A DNA stretch of 33,009 bases from a bacterium (GTDB lineage: Bacteria > UBA6262 > WVXT01), in the NCBI GenBank assembly GCA_035530055.1, contig DATKVN010000019.1:1-33009 (forward strand). Direction: 5' to 3'. The position numbers were made by a program, and so were the translations under genes. Positions 14,924 through 20,434 of this stretch are shown here, piece after piece. How positions within the stretch are numbered: the stretch's first letter is position 1; each line of letters begins with the position of its first letter. Below the pieces are notes generated by a model that searched no databases, was not told the origin of the DNA, and worked only from the letters and a program-made list of their open reading frames with translations.

Positions 14924-15133
14924 TTATTTCCTTACAAATCCACCATAGAGAAAAATGATGGAAATGATTAAAAGGACCACACCTATTTTCTTACGGTGGG
15001 TTATCAATAGTTGATCGTTAAACAGATACTTTCGGCCCCAATCGTTAACCCTTATTATAATTGTTGGCCGGTAGAGATAACCCAAACTGATAATGAGAAA
15101 AAAAAGACCTATCAAGACCTCTAATAGTCTCAA
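14924..15133 (-). CDS. small two-helix membrane protein, first gene of the pmbA-aro operon
   Basis: A 69-residue protein with two membrane segments (about residues 4-23 and 48-66) linked by a short basic and polar loop. I do not recognise a family. I place the start at the TTG at 15131-15133: a perfect AGGAGG lies six nt upstream, inside what would be the coding region if the ATG at 15148 were used. It is the first gene after the promoter at 15167-15195, with a leader of only about 25 nt. Confidence 0.68.
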   Translation of the reverse strand: MRLLEVLIGLFFLIISLGYLYRPTIIIRVNDWGRKYLFNDQLLITHRKKIGVVLLIISIIFLYGGFVRK

Positions 15134-15166
15134 ATTAAACCTCCTCATTTATGTTAATTTTAACTA

Positions 15167-15195
15167 AAATTACCATAAAACCAATGCTTTGTCAA
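15167..15195 (-). promoter_or_regulatory. sigma70-type promoter of the pmbA-aroE-aroC-rhomboid operon
   Basis: On the minus strand TTGACA (15190-15195) and TAATTT (15167-15172) are separated by exactly 17 nt. Two perfect tandem copies of a 15-bp sequence end at the -35 box. Transcription should begin near 15160. Confidence 0.75.
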
Positions 15196-15225
15196 CAGAC
15201 TTATTTTAGACAGACTTATTTTAGA
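15196..15225. repeat. two tandem 15-bp repeats abutting the -35 box
   Basis: CAGACTTATTTTAGA occurs twice head to tail (15196-15210 and 15211-15225), directly upstream of the promoter. It may be an activator site or an AT-rich UP element. The rest of the gap (15226-15363) shows no clear feature. Confidence 0.7.
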
Positions 15226-15363
15226 AGAGCCCTGGCTGGCGTTTATATCTAAAATAGAAATTAGGCTTACCCTTTAACCATTCAATATTCATCTTATCCA
15301 TTTACAAAATCCCTATGCAAACCTATGGCTTATTGCAAACATTGAAATCTACTATTTTTCTAT

Positions 15364-17220
15364 TTACTTCTGCTTTATTTGCAACGTTCCAGGTTCTCTT
15401 AGAACTCCCTTATAAGTAGAATCTAAACTGACTGCCTTGGTAAAATATCTGGCAAATTCCTTTAATTTGCCCGTTCTCTTATAGACTATTGTAAGATTAT
15501 GATAGGGAACAATCCAGTCAGGGTCAATATTTAAAGAATCTTTATAGCTCTCAGTGGCTTTTGAAAATTCATTTTTATGGAAATAGGCATTGCCCAGACT
15601 GTTATAAATCGTTCTATTGTACGGTCTTAAAGGTCTTAGAGCCAAAACTTTCTTATAATGAGAAATTGCCTCATCATACAATTTTCCTTTGGCGTAAGCC
15701 ATACCAAAGTAATAGTAAAAATCAGCATTGTTTTTACACTCATCTGGAAAATCTCTTAAGAGGTTTGAAAAGGTCTTTATAGCTTCATTATATGGGCCTT
15801 TTTCAGCGTAGTACTTAGCCAAGGAGAAGTATGGCTTAGAAAGATTTGGATACATCTTATATGCCGCTGCGATATGATATAATGCTTTTTCATAATCTTT
15901 TTTTCTAATGTAGTTTTCAGCCAACTGAAGGCGTGCGTCCATTGATTGGGGATAAATATTTACATTTTTTTCTAATAAAGTTACTTCATCTTTCCAGTCT
16001 CTATTCCTTGCGAAAGTTACAAAAAAATAAAAACAGGTAATGGAAACAAGAAGTAATGTCCCTATTTTCTTTAAATTCTTGTCAAAAAATAGTCTCTTAA
16101 GCAAAAATGCTACAAGCAAACAAAATCCTAGAGATGGGATATATAACCAGCGTTCCCCATAAATTACACTTAAAGGTATAATCTGCGATACAGGTAGGAG
16201 GCTTATAAAAAAATAAAAGATTGAAAAGCTGGTTTCTTTAGAAAATTTTTTCATTTTAAGGGCAAAAATTAAAATTGCAACTAAGATTAAAACTGAAAAA
16301 AATTCCATTGGAGCTGGAATATAACCTATTATCTGATGAGGATATATTAAAACCAAATTTAGGGGTAAAAAAGACACCCAGATGTATCGCAAAATAGAAG
16401 GCCCCATGTAGGACAAAACCCTTAAATGTAACTTACTACCAAATGGACTTCCATAATAAAGTTCATGCTTGCCAACAAATTTGCCTGGTAGTTCAAACCC
16501 GCGGGCTATTACGATCCATATAAGAACTATGAGAAAAAAAGGAAGGACTGAAACAAGCAGTTTTTTTCTTTCTTTTTGCTGTGAAAAGAAATAAATATAC
16601 AAAACTATAATCAAAGGCAAGGAAGCCGCCATTTCTTTTGAACACAGAGCTAAAATAAACATAAAAATAGAAAGTAAATAAAACCCTTTTTTAATTTTTA
16701 TATTCCTTATACTCTTTAAATACAAAAAGAATGACCCTAGAAAAAATAGACAGGCAAGTAATTCCGTCCGGTAAACCACCACATTAACTGCCTCGGTATG
16801 TATAGGATGTATTGCAAAAATCAATGCTGTAATGGACGAGATTGTTCTATTCTTGAATATATATCTAATGAGAAAATAGATTAAGATTGTATTTAATATG
16901 TGGACAAAAATATTAAAAATTCTCCAACCATATACATTTAACTTAAAGAAATGGTAATTTAAGAACAATGTTAATGTATAAAGAGGCCGGTAAGTTGTCT
17001 CACGGAAATATGACAGATATTTCGAACTGAAAAGTAACGAAAGATTATCTAATCGTTTTATATACCCGTTTTCTACAATACGTCCTGGATCGTCCCAGAC
17101 GAATGGATTTTGAAAAGTATTTATAAAAGAAAAAAATGCAAGAATTCCTATTATAATCAAAATTATTTTTTCATTTTTCTCCCACCAGTTAGATATTATT
17201 GTGTTGTTTTGCTCTTTCAT
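15364..17220 (-). CDS. TMTC-like polytopic membrane glycosyltransferase with C-terminal TPR repeats
   Basis: A 618-residue protein in two parts. The first 410 or so residues are a GT-C-like membrane domain with about ten hydrophobic segments. Motifs include NPFVWDDPGRI (about 38-48, with the DD typical of GT-C enzymes), TTYRPLYTL, HPIHTEAVN (138-146) and ERWLYIPSLGFCLL. The last part (about 428-600) is about five TPR repeats (for example YEKALYHIAAAYKMYP, YDEAISHYKKVLALRP, FSKATESYKDSLNIDP). This layout matches the TMTC/O-mannosyltransferase-like family found widely in bacteria, which would transfer a lipid-linked sugar to a periplasmic acceptor; donor and acceptor are unknown. The gene is strikingly AT-rich compared with its neighbours, and its ATG has only a weak binding site. 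Confidence 0.83.
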   Translation of the reverse strand: MKEQNNTIISNWWEKNEKIILIIIGILAFFSFINTFQNPFVWDDPGRIVENGYIKRLDNLSLLFSSKYLSYFRETTYRPLYTLTLFLNYHFFKLNVYGWRIFNIFVHILNTILIYFLIRYIFKNRTISSITALIFAIHPIHTEAVNVVVYRTELLACLFFLGSFFLYLKSIRNIKIKKGFYLLSIFMFILALCSKEMAASLPLIIVLYIYFFSQQKERKKLLVSVLPFFLIVLIWIVIARGFELPGKFVGKHELYYGSPFGSKLHLRVLSYMGPSILRYIWVSFLPLNLVLIYPHQIIGYIPAPMEFFSVLILVAILIFALKMKKFSKETSFSIFYFFISLLPVSQIIPLSVIYGERWLYIPSLGFCLLVAFLLKRLFFDKNLKKIGTLLLVSITCFYFFVTFARNRDWKDEVTLLEKNVNIYPQSMDARLQLAENYIRKKDYEKALYHIAAAYKMYPNLSKPYFSLAKYYAEKGPYNEAIKTFSNLLRDFPDECKNNADFYYYFGMAYAKGKLYDEAISHYKKVLALRPLRPYNRTIYNSLGNAYFHKNEFSKATESYKDSLNIDPDWIVPYHNLTIVYKRTGKLKEFARYFTKAVSLDSTYKGVLREPGTLQIKQK

Positions 17221-17290
17221 AAATAACTCACTTTTTGTCCGTCCACTATCAAAGACTGTAAATCAAACCGCTCTACTTATTCAAGTATCC

Positions 17291-18610
17291 TTACTTTCCG
17301 ATGAGTTTTTTCTTTCGTAGTAACCTGTGGTACCTGATAGCAAAGCGGTGAGCTTCGTCTCGTATATGCTGGATGAGATGTAGAACAGGTGAGCTGAAGG
17401 GAAGGCGAATCGGACGGGAACGTTGAGGCAGAAATATTAACTCTTCTCCCTTAGCAAGTCCAACCACGGGAATAGTCCCCAGTCCCAGCTCATTAAGAAC
17501 TCCTTTAGCCCCATTCACTTGCCCTTTCCCTCCATCAACCAGAATCAAATCTGGCAACAATCCTTTTTCTTTTATCAACCTCGTATACCTTCGGTGGATT
17601 ACCTCTTTCATCATACCTACATCATCAATTCCTGTGACCATTTTTATCTTAAATTTCCTATAAGATTTATTTTCAGGCTTTCCACCGGAAAAGACGACCA
17701 TAGACCCCACAGCCGAGTCTCCATAAATATCGGATATATCGAAAGCCTCTATCCTTTCCGGTAAGTTTTCCAACTCTATTGCTTTTTGAAGCTCAATTAA
17801 AATCTCACCCTTTCCAGCAGCCTTTAATTTCTGTTTCTCTACTTGTCGCAAATTAACCCTTTGGGAAATGGACTGTATTGCTCCTATCTGGTCTCGAAAG
17901 ATTTTTGCCTTCTCAAAGTCGAGTTGCCTGGATGCCCCTTTCATCTCTTCTTTCAGCTTTTTCAAAAGACTCTCTCCCTTTCCCGAGAGAAACAGGACGA
18001 CTTTCTCCACTATTTTCCTGTAATCTTCCTTGCTTATCCACTCCACACAAGGTGCCAGGCACTGTCCCAGATGGAAATCCAAGCAACTACTGGGGTTACC
18101 CTCTTTTCGTCGAGCCAGAAAGAAGCTCTTACTACATTTAACCAGAGGGAATATCCTCTGGATTGTCTTAAGTGTCCTCTTGAGTGAAGAGACATCGGGA
18201 TAAGGACCAAAATATTTTATCCCAGGCATTCTGTGCTTCACCCTCTCCTTTTTTGAGATCCGCGCCATCACCAATTTAGGAAAATCCTCATCAATGGTCA
18301 ACTTGAGGTGAGGATAAGTTTTATCATCTCTTAAGGCTATATTATATTTGGGATGGAAGTATTTTATTAACTCGTTTTCTAATATCAAAGCTTCTTTTTC
18401 GTTTCGGGTTACAATGTACTGGAGGTCTCGCACATTCGAAATTAAAGCAAAAGTTCTTGGAGAGTAAGTGCTCGGGGATTGAAAATATGCAGGAATTCTC
18501 TTTCTAATCGATTTTGCTTTGCCCACATAAATAACTCTGCCAGTAATGTCCTTCATCATATATATTCCTGGTACATCAGGTAGAGAAGCGAGTTTTCCCT
18601 CAAACTTCAT
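17291..18610 (-). CDS. uvrC: compact UvrC-type excinuclease subunit lacking a middle region and the (HhH)2 domain
   Basis: A 439-residue UvrC, against about 560-610 usually. Domains: GIY-YIG nuclease (1-95; GIY 15-17, YVG 28-30, E78/E80 region), a four-cysteine set C159, C176, C184, C188 matching the Fe-S ligands reported for E. coli UvrC, a UVR helix pair (about 226-260), and the RNase H-like nuclease core with D291 (AFDISDI), D359 (LILVDGGKGQ) and H421 (RDEAHRFAI). It stops right after YHRLLRKKKL, where other UvrCs continue into (HhH)2. It also lacks roughly 75-110 residues usually found between UVR and the RNase H core. All catalytic residues remain, so it may still incise DNA with UvrAB. 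It overlaps the end of murJ by 11 nt; AAAGGA precedes the ATG. Confidence 0.92.
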   Translation of the reverse strand: MKFEGKLASLPDVPGIYMMKDITGRVIYVGKAKSIRKRIPAYFQSPSTYSPRTFALISNVRDLQYIVTRNEKEALILENELIKYFHPKYNIALRDDKTYPHLKLTIDEDFPKLVMARISKKERVKHRMPGIKYFGPYPDVSSLKRTLKTIQRIFPLVKCSKSFFLARRKEGNPSSCLDFHLGQCLAPCVEWISKEDYRKIVEKVVLFLSGKGESLLKKLKEEMKGASRQLDFEKAKIFRDQIGAIQSISQRVNLRQVEKQKLKAAGKGEILIELQKAIELENLPERIEAFDISDIYGDSAVGSMVVFSGGKPENKSYRKFKIKMVTGIDDVGMMKEVIHRRYTRLIKEKGLLPDLILVDGGKGQVNGAKGVLNELGLGTIPVVGLAKGEELIFLPQRSRPIRLPFSSPVLHLIQHIRDEAHRFAIRYHRLLRKKKLIGK

Positions 18611-20243
18611 TTGTCGATTCCTTTCGCGTAATTATCTTCCATACATATTTAATCTCATCACAACGCAAAAGATGCGCTACCAAAATGTAGATAATTACAC
18701 AAATCAGAATAGTACCAGCCACTTGTATCAACTTGTTAATCTGGCCTAATAATCGGGAGAAATATATGCAGGCTATTCCCATAGCTGATGAGGCAACTAG
18801 AATTTTAGCAAGCGAAAGTAATACTTTCTTCCCTCCCAACCTGCCAATCCTCTTTCTTAGATAGTATAGAAGGATTAACAAATTAATAAAGGAAGCAATG
18901 GCAGTAGCGAAAGCAAGCCCGCCTACATCCAGAATACGCATTAAGATCAGATTCAGAACTATGTTTGCCACCATAGCAATGGAGGCTATTCTTACTGGCG
19001 TCCGGGTATCCTGCATGGAATAGAATGCAGATGCTACCACCTTTACTCCCGCATAGGCCACTATTCCAGTTGAATAGAATAAGAGCGCCCAGCTGGTGGC
19101 CTGGGTAGCTTGGGATGTAAATCTTCCCCTTTCAAATAGAAGAGAGATTATGGGACTTCCTAAAATAATCAGTCCCAGTGAAGCAGGAATAATAGTAAAC
19201 ATTATCATTCTAAGTGATAACGATAGAGTATCCTTTAGTTCTTCCATGTTGGTAGCTGCCACTGAGCGAGACATCATGGGCAAGGCAACGGTTGCTATCG
19301 CTGTCCCAAACAGAGCTAAAGGAAGTTGCATCAGGCGATTTGCATAATATAGAGCGGTAACACTTCCTTCTCTAAGTAGTGTAGCGCAAATTGTATCCAC
19401 AAAGGTATTCACCTGGGATACAGATAATCCCAGAGTCGCTGGAAGCATCAACAGCCCTATTCTCTTCACTCCCGGATGATTTAAGATGGAAGTCCATCTT
19501 TTCCACAGGACATTCCAGTTCTTCAGGAGATTCTGAGGATAGTCCATCAGCTTTAGACGGGGATTACTGTAACTCCTCCCTGCTGGCAAAAGAAAACCTT
19601 TCTTTACTAAAGAGGGTACCTGAAAGAAGAACTGGGCAAACCCCCCAACCAGAACCCCCAAAACAAGTCCAATTATTGGTCGTTCCATTAATGGACATAT
19701 AAACAAAATAAAGAAAATTTCAGAAATACTGAGCAGAGAGGGAGCCAGGGCAGGAATAATAAACCTGTGAAGAGAGTTCAATATTCCCAAAGCTAAAGCC
19801 GCCATACCTATTGCCATCATGAAAGGAAAAAGGATACGGGTAAGAGTAATGGTTAAGGAGAGTTTTTGCGGATCCTTAATGAAACCCGGAGCAATCACGC
19901 GGACAATTATAGGAGAAAAGATAATTCCCAGAATTGTCAAAATAGATAAGATGGCCAAAAGTAGCAGGCCCGAAATTCTTGCCAGTCTCTGTGCTTCTTC
20001 CTTAGGTTTGGTAGTTAAATATTCGGTAAACACAGGAATAAAGGATGCGGAGAGCGCCCCTTCTCCAAGAAGCCGACGGAGAAGATTGGGAATGCGATAA
20101 GCAACAAAAAAGGCGTCGGCTACCAAACCAGCACCAAAAAAATTAGCTATAAGCATGTCTCTTAGATAGCCAAGAATCCGAGATGCCAGGGTAGAAACGC
20201 TAACACCAGCAACCGACCTAGTGATTTTTCCTTCCCTCTCCAA
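18600..20243 (-). CDS. murJ: lipid II flippase
   Basis: A 547-residue polytopic membrane protein of the MurJ/MviN family (MOP exporter superfamily), which flips lipid II across the inner membrane for peptidoglycan synthesis. The N-terminus (SVAGVSVSTLASRILGYLRD, then IANFFGAGLVADAFFVAYRI) and LLGEGALSASFIPVF are hallmark segments. About fourteen membrane helices are apparent. I choose the TTG at 20241-20243 as start because AGGAG lies 7 nt upstream and MEREGKITRSVAGVS is a normal MurJ beginning. A TTG at 20288 in the same frame lacks a binding site and would overlap the plus-strand rpsT promoter. uvrC follows with an 11-nt overlap. Confidence 0.94.
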   Translation of the reverse strand: MEREGKITRSVAGVSVSTLASRILGYLRDMLIANFFGAGLVADAFFVAYRIPNLLRRLLGEGALSASFIPVFTEYLTTKPKEEAQRLARISGLLLLAILSILTILGIIFSPIIVRVIAPGFIKDPQKLSLTITLTRILFPFMMAIGMAALALGILNSLHRFIIPALAPSLLSISEIFFILFICPLMERPIIGLVLGVLVGGFAQFFFQVPSLVKKGFLLPAGRSYSNPRLKLMDYPQNLLKNWNVLWKRWTSILNHPGVKRIGLLMLPATLGLSVSQVNTFVDTICATLLREGSVTALYYANRLMQLPLALFGTAIATVALPMMSRSVAATNMEELKDTLSLSLRMIMFTIIPASLGLIILGSPIISLLFERGRFTSQATQATSWALLFYSTGIVAYAGVKVVASAFYSMQDTRTPVRIASIAMVANIVLNLILMRILDVGGLAFATAIASFINLLILLYYLRKRIGRLGGKKVLLSLAKILVASSAMGIACIYFSRLLGQINKLIQVAGTILICVIIYILVAHLLRCDEIKYVWKIITRKESTNEV

Positions 20244-20270
20244 TCCCTTTCTCCTAAATAAAGATTGTTC

Positions 20271-20299
20271 TTGACTTTCGCTTCTCAATATGGTATTTT
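20271..20299 (+). promoter_or_regulatory. sigma70-type promoter for rpsT
   Basis: TTGACT (20271-20276) and TATTTT (20294-20299) are 17 nt apart on the plus strand. It begins 27 nt beyond the chosen murJ start, in the space between the divergent genes. The expected start, near 20306, gives a leader of about 130 nt that contains the palindrome at 20301-20387. Confidence 0.58.
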
Positions 20300-20300
20300 A

Positions 20301-20387
20301 GATCAACTGTCATTGCGAGAGAGCGAAGCGACCGAAGCAATCTCCCGACTGCCACGCTCCTTTCAGTCGCTCGCAGTGACATGATCA
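20301..20387. repeat. GTCATTGCGAG-type palindromic repeat in the rpsT leader
   Basis: Ends at 20301-20319 (GATCA..TGTCATTGCGAG) and 20370-20387 (CTCGCAGTGACATGATC) are inverted repeats. The interior reads GAGCGAAGCGACCGAAGCAATCTC. Elements with these TGTCATTGCGAG termini are widespread extragenic palindromes in unrelated bacteria. Here it lies between the rpsT promoter and the rpsT start. Confidence 0.8.
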
Positions 20388-20434
20388 TATATCAAAGCTA
20401 TTACTCTCAAGCTACGAGTCAGGAGATCTCGCTA

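Follow-up and report, generated by a model that had tools for sequence, protein, structure and literature searches.

A UvrC lacking the central ribonuclease H-like domain and the (HhH)2 domain, and the recurrence of this architecture across bacterial lineages

The orthodox UvrC protein has the architecture C4-UvrBb-EndoV-HhH, and the passages on UvrC architecture in the same paper do not describe a form that keeps EndoV and is without HhH (Dunin-Horkawicz et al., 2006, PMC1564403). In Helicobacter, according to the sections of PMC9426483 dealing with UvrC, the proteins of H. felis and H. suis lack the middle region, and all species aligned there have a truncated or missing HhH region. Disruption of the remaining HhH motif in H. 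pylori was reported not to raise UV sensitivity markedly, whereas mutations in the nuclease sites did raise it, and the same sections assign a DNA-binding patch to the RNase H core and a part in DNA binding to the Fe-S loop (PMC9426483). According to a review passage, the 5' cut requires (HhH)2 (PMC7835731). Since both losses are reported in those sections for Helicobacter, a reduced UvrC is already a known kind of protein (PMC9426483). Our literature search, in which the coverage of subscription papers was thin, found no survey of the double loss outside Helicobacter. New here are the precise description of the reduction as loss of PF22920 and (HhH)2, and the finding that it recurs in several lineages.

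The gene described here lies in a window of 33,009 nucleotides, by which we mean the whole stretch of DNA analyzed. Two whole domains are absent from its product, the C-terminal (HhH)2 and PF22920, both at clean boundaries. The features of the locus are as follows:

18600..20288, minus strand: murJ (PF03023), the conserved upstream neighbor, overlapping uvrC by 11 nt, with the gene order as in locus L051
17291..18610, minus strand: uvrC, 439 aa, reduced architecture, ATG at 18610 and stop at 17291-17293
18314..18610, minus strand: GIY-YIG nuclease domain, residues 1-99 (Pfam 15-90; Y17, Y28, R38, E78, N90; structural match to 1yd6)
18047..18136, minus strand: four-cysteine stretch of the Fe-S type, C159 to C188, conserved in 80 of 84 rows
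17870..17974, minus strand: UVR motif, UvrB-binding, residues 213-247 (PF02151, E 1.3e-9, over the cut-off)
17789..17857, minus strand: short junction, residues 252-274, with PF22920 (about 115 residues) absent
17336..17788, minus strand: RNase H (EndoV-like) nuclease domain, residues 275-425 (PF08459, E 1.6e-56; D291, D359, H421)
17291..17347, minus strand: basic C-terminal helix end, residues 422-439 plus stop, with (HhH)2 absent beyond it

Pfam identified GIY-YIG (15-90), UVR (213-247) and UvrC_RNaseH_dom PF08459 (275-425) in the uvrC product and nothing else over the cut-off. An initial annotation of this DNA had listed the GIY-YIG residues, four cysteines and D291/D359/H421 as present, and this was confirmed by an alignment of 84 rows: Y17, Y28, R38, E78, D291, D359 and H421 were identical in all 84, while C159, C176, C184 and C188 were conserved in 80. 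The Fe-S cluster itself is predicted, and the Fe-S role of such a four-cysteine stretch is taken from the relevant sections of PMC9426483. In L137, from a small genome of 0.9 Mb, the four-cysteine stretch of UvrC was found to be mostly lost. The window protein scored 439.5 bits with the TIGR00194 uvrC equivalog model, against a curated cut-off of 285.45, and carries the sequence features of UvrC, namely a GIY-YIG domain with the catalytic Tyr, Arg and Glu, four cysteines, UVR and the DDH triad of RNase H.

PF22920, termed the 'UvrC Ribonuclease H-like domain', has 116 positions and lies between UVR and RNase H in full-length UvrCs. In the full-length relatives L008 and L015, Pfam placed it at 247-362 and 257-371, with HhH models near the end of the protein. 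UVR and RNase H are separated by 24 residues in the window UvrC vs 136-194 (median 144) in 27 canonical UvrCs. The claim that 75-110 residues are missing from a shortened middle thus holds for the loss and not for the shortening, as a whole domain is gone. At the other end, the protein stops 18 residues past H421, at the point where full-length UvrCs enter the linker to (HhH)2. With the threshold relaxed to E = 1, Pfam gave no HhH or PF22920 match in the window UvrC, and PF22920 had no match in the genome to which the window belongs. Six-frame HMM scans of positions 15001-20400 and of four relatives found no significant remnant of the missing domains, with HhH scoring no better than E 0.88 anywhere in the window. 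A frameshift or a hidden HhH domain was rejected on these scans. The initial description of a protein ending soon after the catalytic His, 70 nt before the next gene and with no frameshift, agrees with both the scans and the coordinates of the open reading frame.

The 70 nt lie between the uvrC stop and a gene of unrelated product that starts at 17220. L051 (WJOT01000027.1) has the upstream gene order of the window and a different downstream gene, so the end of uvrC is not the product of its neighbor or of a single assembly. The downstream gene in the window (15364-17220, minus strand) encodes a membrane protein with DUF6056-like and TPR domains and lies in a stretch of low GC content (35-37%). 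Because L051 carries a different gene in its place, glycosyltransferase-like by eye, it is likely a recent insertion or replacement. Upstream of murJ, at 20321-20342 (minus strand), there is a GC-rich intergenic element resembling a dispersed repeat, of which one more near copy, with two mismatches, was found elsewhere in the genome.

A search of the genome (106 contigs, 96% complete) gave the window UvrC as the sole UvrC match; a second, full-length uvrC, which the initial annotation had considered, was not found there. The same genome encodes a full-length UvrB that carries UvrB_inter and, at its C-terminus, a UVR motif, as well as full-length UvrA and Mfd, and UvrD_C (UvrD-type) proteins. 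Compared to two species of the same genus, uvrC had dN/dS values of 0.139 and 0.095, and its RNase H part alone had 0.128 and 0.101. The UVR-linker part showed relaxed constraint against one of the species (0.473) but not against the second (0.152). The gene is under purifying selection, with dN/dS about 0.09-0.14. The UvrCs of G003, G002 and G004 (94, 89, and 56% identity) have ends that coincide with those of the window UvrC, and the architecture is identical in four genomes of the order. In G001, of the same genus, the UvrC match covers 46 residues only, possibly at a contig edge, and G005, of the same order, gave no match to the window UvrC.

The reduced architecture was also found in other lineages. 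Among 386 genomes from across the bacterial domain, the RNase H part of the window UvrC had a match in 364 and PF22920 in 306, with 58 genomes having an RNase H match and no PF22920 match. As a proxy for deletion, a missing PF22920 match proved too loose: the T. maritima control has none, and neither do G015, G041, and G055, yet the frames of these three genomes are full length (585-607 aa). The UVR-to-RNase H gap was therefore used instead; in some Verrucomicrobiota rows it reaches up to 139 solely from a partial RNase H match. We fetched 24 of the 58 loci, chosen mostly for short open frames, and all 24 were found to have a gap of 16-49 residues. HhH was also missing in 18 of them and retained in six (L005, L006, L031, L046, L047, and L048). 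The reverse state, with PF22920 kept and (HhH)2 lost, was seen in nine tree rows (L018, L131-L134, L137, and L139-L141). Each domain can be lost alone. The best 80 named loci for the short profile are a biased sample, in which none had the middle domain and 59, mostly Planctomycetota, had no HhH match; HhH was retained there in Verrucomicrobiota and Selenomonadaceae loci and in one of the two Omnitrophota loci. The double loss occurs in many Planctomycetota, in an Omnitrophota MAG and in other families. In one locus (L050, G211:C31) UvrC is spread over two frames of 245 and 395 residues, by a frameshift or a sequencing error.

Genome G277, a single contig that is 99% complete, has one RNase H match and the double loss. 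It is taken as a member of the Planctomycetota because it is close to Gimesia L060 in the tree. The RNase H match was present in 143 of the 147 genomes of this phylum and PF22920 in 88, and the Planctomycetota are therefore mixed with respect to the middle domain. Of the double-loss genomes, 17 of 18 had one RNase H match, G061 having two. UvrA and UvrB were searched for in 21 genomes, comprising the 18 with double loss, G294 and the HhH-less G365 and G098; each was found over the cut-off in 20, and the misses fall in G002 and G384, two less complete genomes. At G277:C1:1504004-1509826, two full UvrA-type matches were observed in one open frame of 2335 residues, i.e., a tandem UvrA fusion.

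A tree restricted to the shared core (84 rows, 403 columns) was built and included 23 of the 80 named loci. Masked, truncated, frame-split or duplicate sequences were dropped beforehand (L007, L012, L028, L037, L038, L050, L051, L135, L136, and L142), and L138 was left out since it was scored HhH-less with a frame running off the contig end. The tree requires at least 10 changes each for the middle domain and for HhH, without by itself telling gain from loss, and the well-supported branches alone require at least three changes for the double-loss state. The exact number of losses is uncertain because of four long branches and an unsettled bootstrap. The placement of the window UvrC with G002-G004 is firm (100/99), and that with eight further double-loss rows is weak (81/92). 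That relatives share the architecture, as the initial annotation had suggested checking, holds for G002-G004 and for other lineages. The UvrC of L112, on a contig labelled Vicinamibacteraceae (Acidobacteriota), falls inside the Planctomycetota (100/92); this probably reflects a wrong label or a transferred gene.

An AlphaFold2 model of the window UvrC, built on 44 sequences, had a mean pLDDT of 81 and a pTM of 0.50; the domain folds are therefore credible and their relative arrangement is uncertain. The RNase H part matched D. radiodurans 8b0q with Z 24.6 over 164 aligned positions (rmsd 1.6) and 2nrz with Z 24.2 over 154 (rmsd 1.6), and the N-terminus matched 1yd6 (Z 16.6, rmsd 1.5, 93 aligned). 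A structural search with the model gave single-domain matches only, and none to the whole UvrC arrangement.

The window protein is probably a functional reduced UvrC and the only 3'- and 5'-incising excinuclease subunit of the cell. The computations show which domains it has, that its key residues are intact, that it is the sole UvrC match, that the partner genes are present, that it is under selection and that its architecture recurs in other lineages; dual incision and a replacement of the HhH contacts are inferred. UvrA and UvrB would find and verify the lesion, after which the UVR motif of UvrC would dock onto the C-terminal UVR motif of UvrB. By analogy with UvrABC biochemistry as given in review passages, the GIY-YIG site would then cut 3' and the RNase H site would cut 5'. 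The DNA contacts of HhH may instead be made by UvrB, by the RNase H core with the basic C-terminal helix, and by the Fe-S region. As the central RNase H-like domain is gone, only a short link beside the UVR helices would join the two nucleases. That domain, an inactive RNase H, was reportedly proposed by Seck et al. in 2023 to be a platform keeping UvrC closed.

Other explanations were weighed against a functional reduced UvrC. A decaying paralog or relic, or an assembly error, standing beside a full-length UvrC that was missed could be imagined in a genome of 106 contigs and 96% completeness, where a second copy may have escaped detection. It is very improbable given that four genomes of the order share the identical architecture, that dN/dS is 0.09-0.14 with no remnants of HhH or the middle domain, and that the gene ends at the same place in L051 despite a different downstream gene. 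The single-contig genome G277, of another lineage, likewise has this architecture at its one RNase H match. Cho is likewise short and without HhH in the description of PMC1564403, and the initial annotation had suggested a narrower role of that kind, i.e., an accessory enzyme making the 3' cut only. However, both UVR and the whole RNase H core, DDH triad included, are kept in the window protein and lacking from Cho in the same description. The window protein scores 43 bits with the Cho model (cut-off 367) while exceeding the cut-off of TIGR00194, and no other UvrC for it to assist was found in the genome; we regard a Cho-like role as scarcely credible. Since it is the sole UvrC match, has its NER partners, is under purifying selection and has ends matching those of its relatives, the window UvrC is most likely neither a decaying paralog, nor an assembly error, nor Cho.

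A change of main function, by which the reduced UvrC would serve recombination or some other nuclease task in place of general NER, appears unlikely. It would find a parallel in H. pylori, where, according to the sections on DNA import in PMC9426483, UvrC has a role independent of the nuclease sites and HhH, but the nuclease sites are under strong constraint here and the full NER gene set is present. The minimal working UvrC envisaged in the initial annotation is, as judged from sequence, supported by the sole copy, UvrA, UvrB and Mfd, the catalytic residues, the low dN/dS and the architecture shared by relatives.

We tentatively raise the possibility that several lineages independently made UvrC a permanently 'open' tool with two nucleases by deleting the central platform and (HhH)2, leaving UvrB alone to position the cuts. 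If so, the platform and HhH would be modules for regulation or for the range of lesions and would not belong to the incision machine; lineages with the double loss may then differ in the spacing of the cuts or in the range of lesions handled. The recurrent trimming is a natural test of which UvrC parts are needed. Because stable natural UvrCs lack both parts, some of them in cultivated Planctomycetota, the claims of a 5' cut dependent on (HhH)2 and of a platform keeping UvrC closed are directly testable. Reduced UvrCs may also offer a smaller and simpler UvrABC for structural work.

Compared to the orthodox UvrCs of E. coli, T. maritima and D. radiodurans, the window UvrC shares GIY-YIG, the four cysteines, UVR, the RNase H core and all catalytic residues, whereas it has 439 aa vs 610 aa for the E. 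coli protein and is without PF22920 and (HhH)2. The orthodox architecture in Table 1 of PMC1564403 includes the HhH that is missing here; PF22920, detected in 306 of the 364 genomes with an RNase H match and also missing here, is not named in that table. Cho has GIY-YIG and four cysteines in common with the window UvrC and likewise no HhH, but is without UVR and RNase H in the part of PMC1564403 that describes it. The reduced UvrCs of Helicobacter belong to another lineage and resemble the window UvrC in the absence of the middle region (H. felis and H. suis), in a truncated or missing HhH and in the kept nuclease sites, a likeness based on the description in sections of PMC9426483. The UvrCs of Planctomycetota, e.g., G277 (L049), Gimesia L060 and Roseimaritima L114, have about 40% identity to the window UvrC and form a separate well-supported clade in the tree, and they show the same double loss with the catalytic residues intact.
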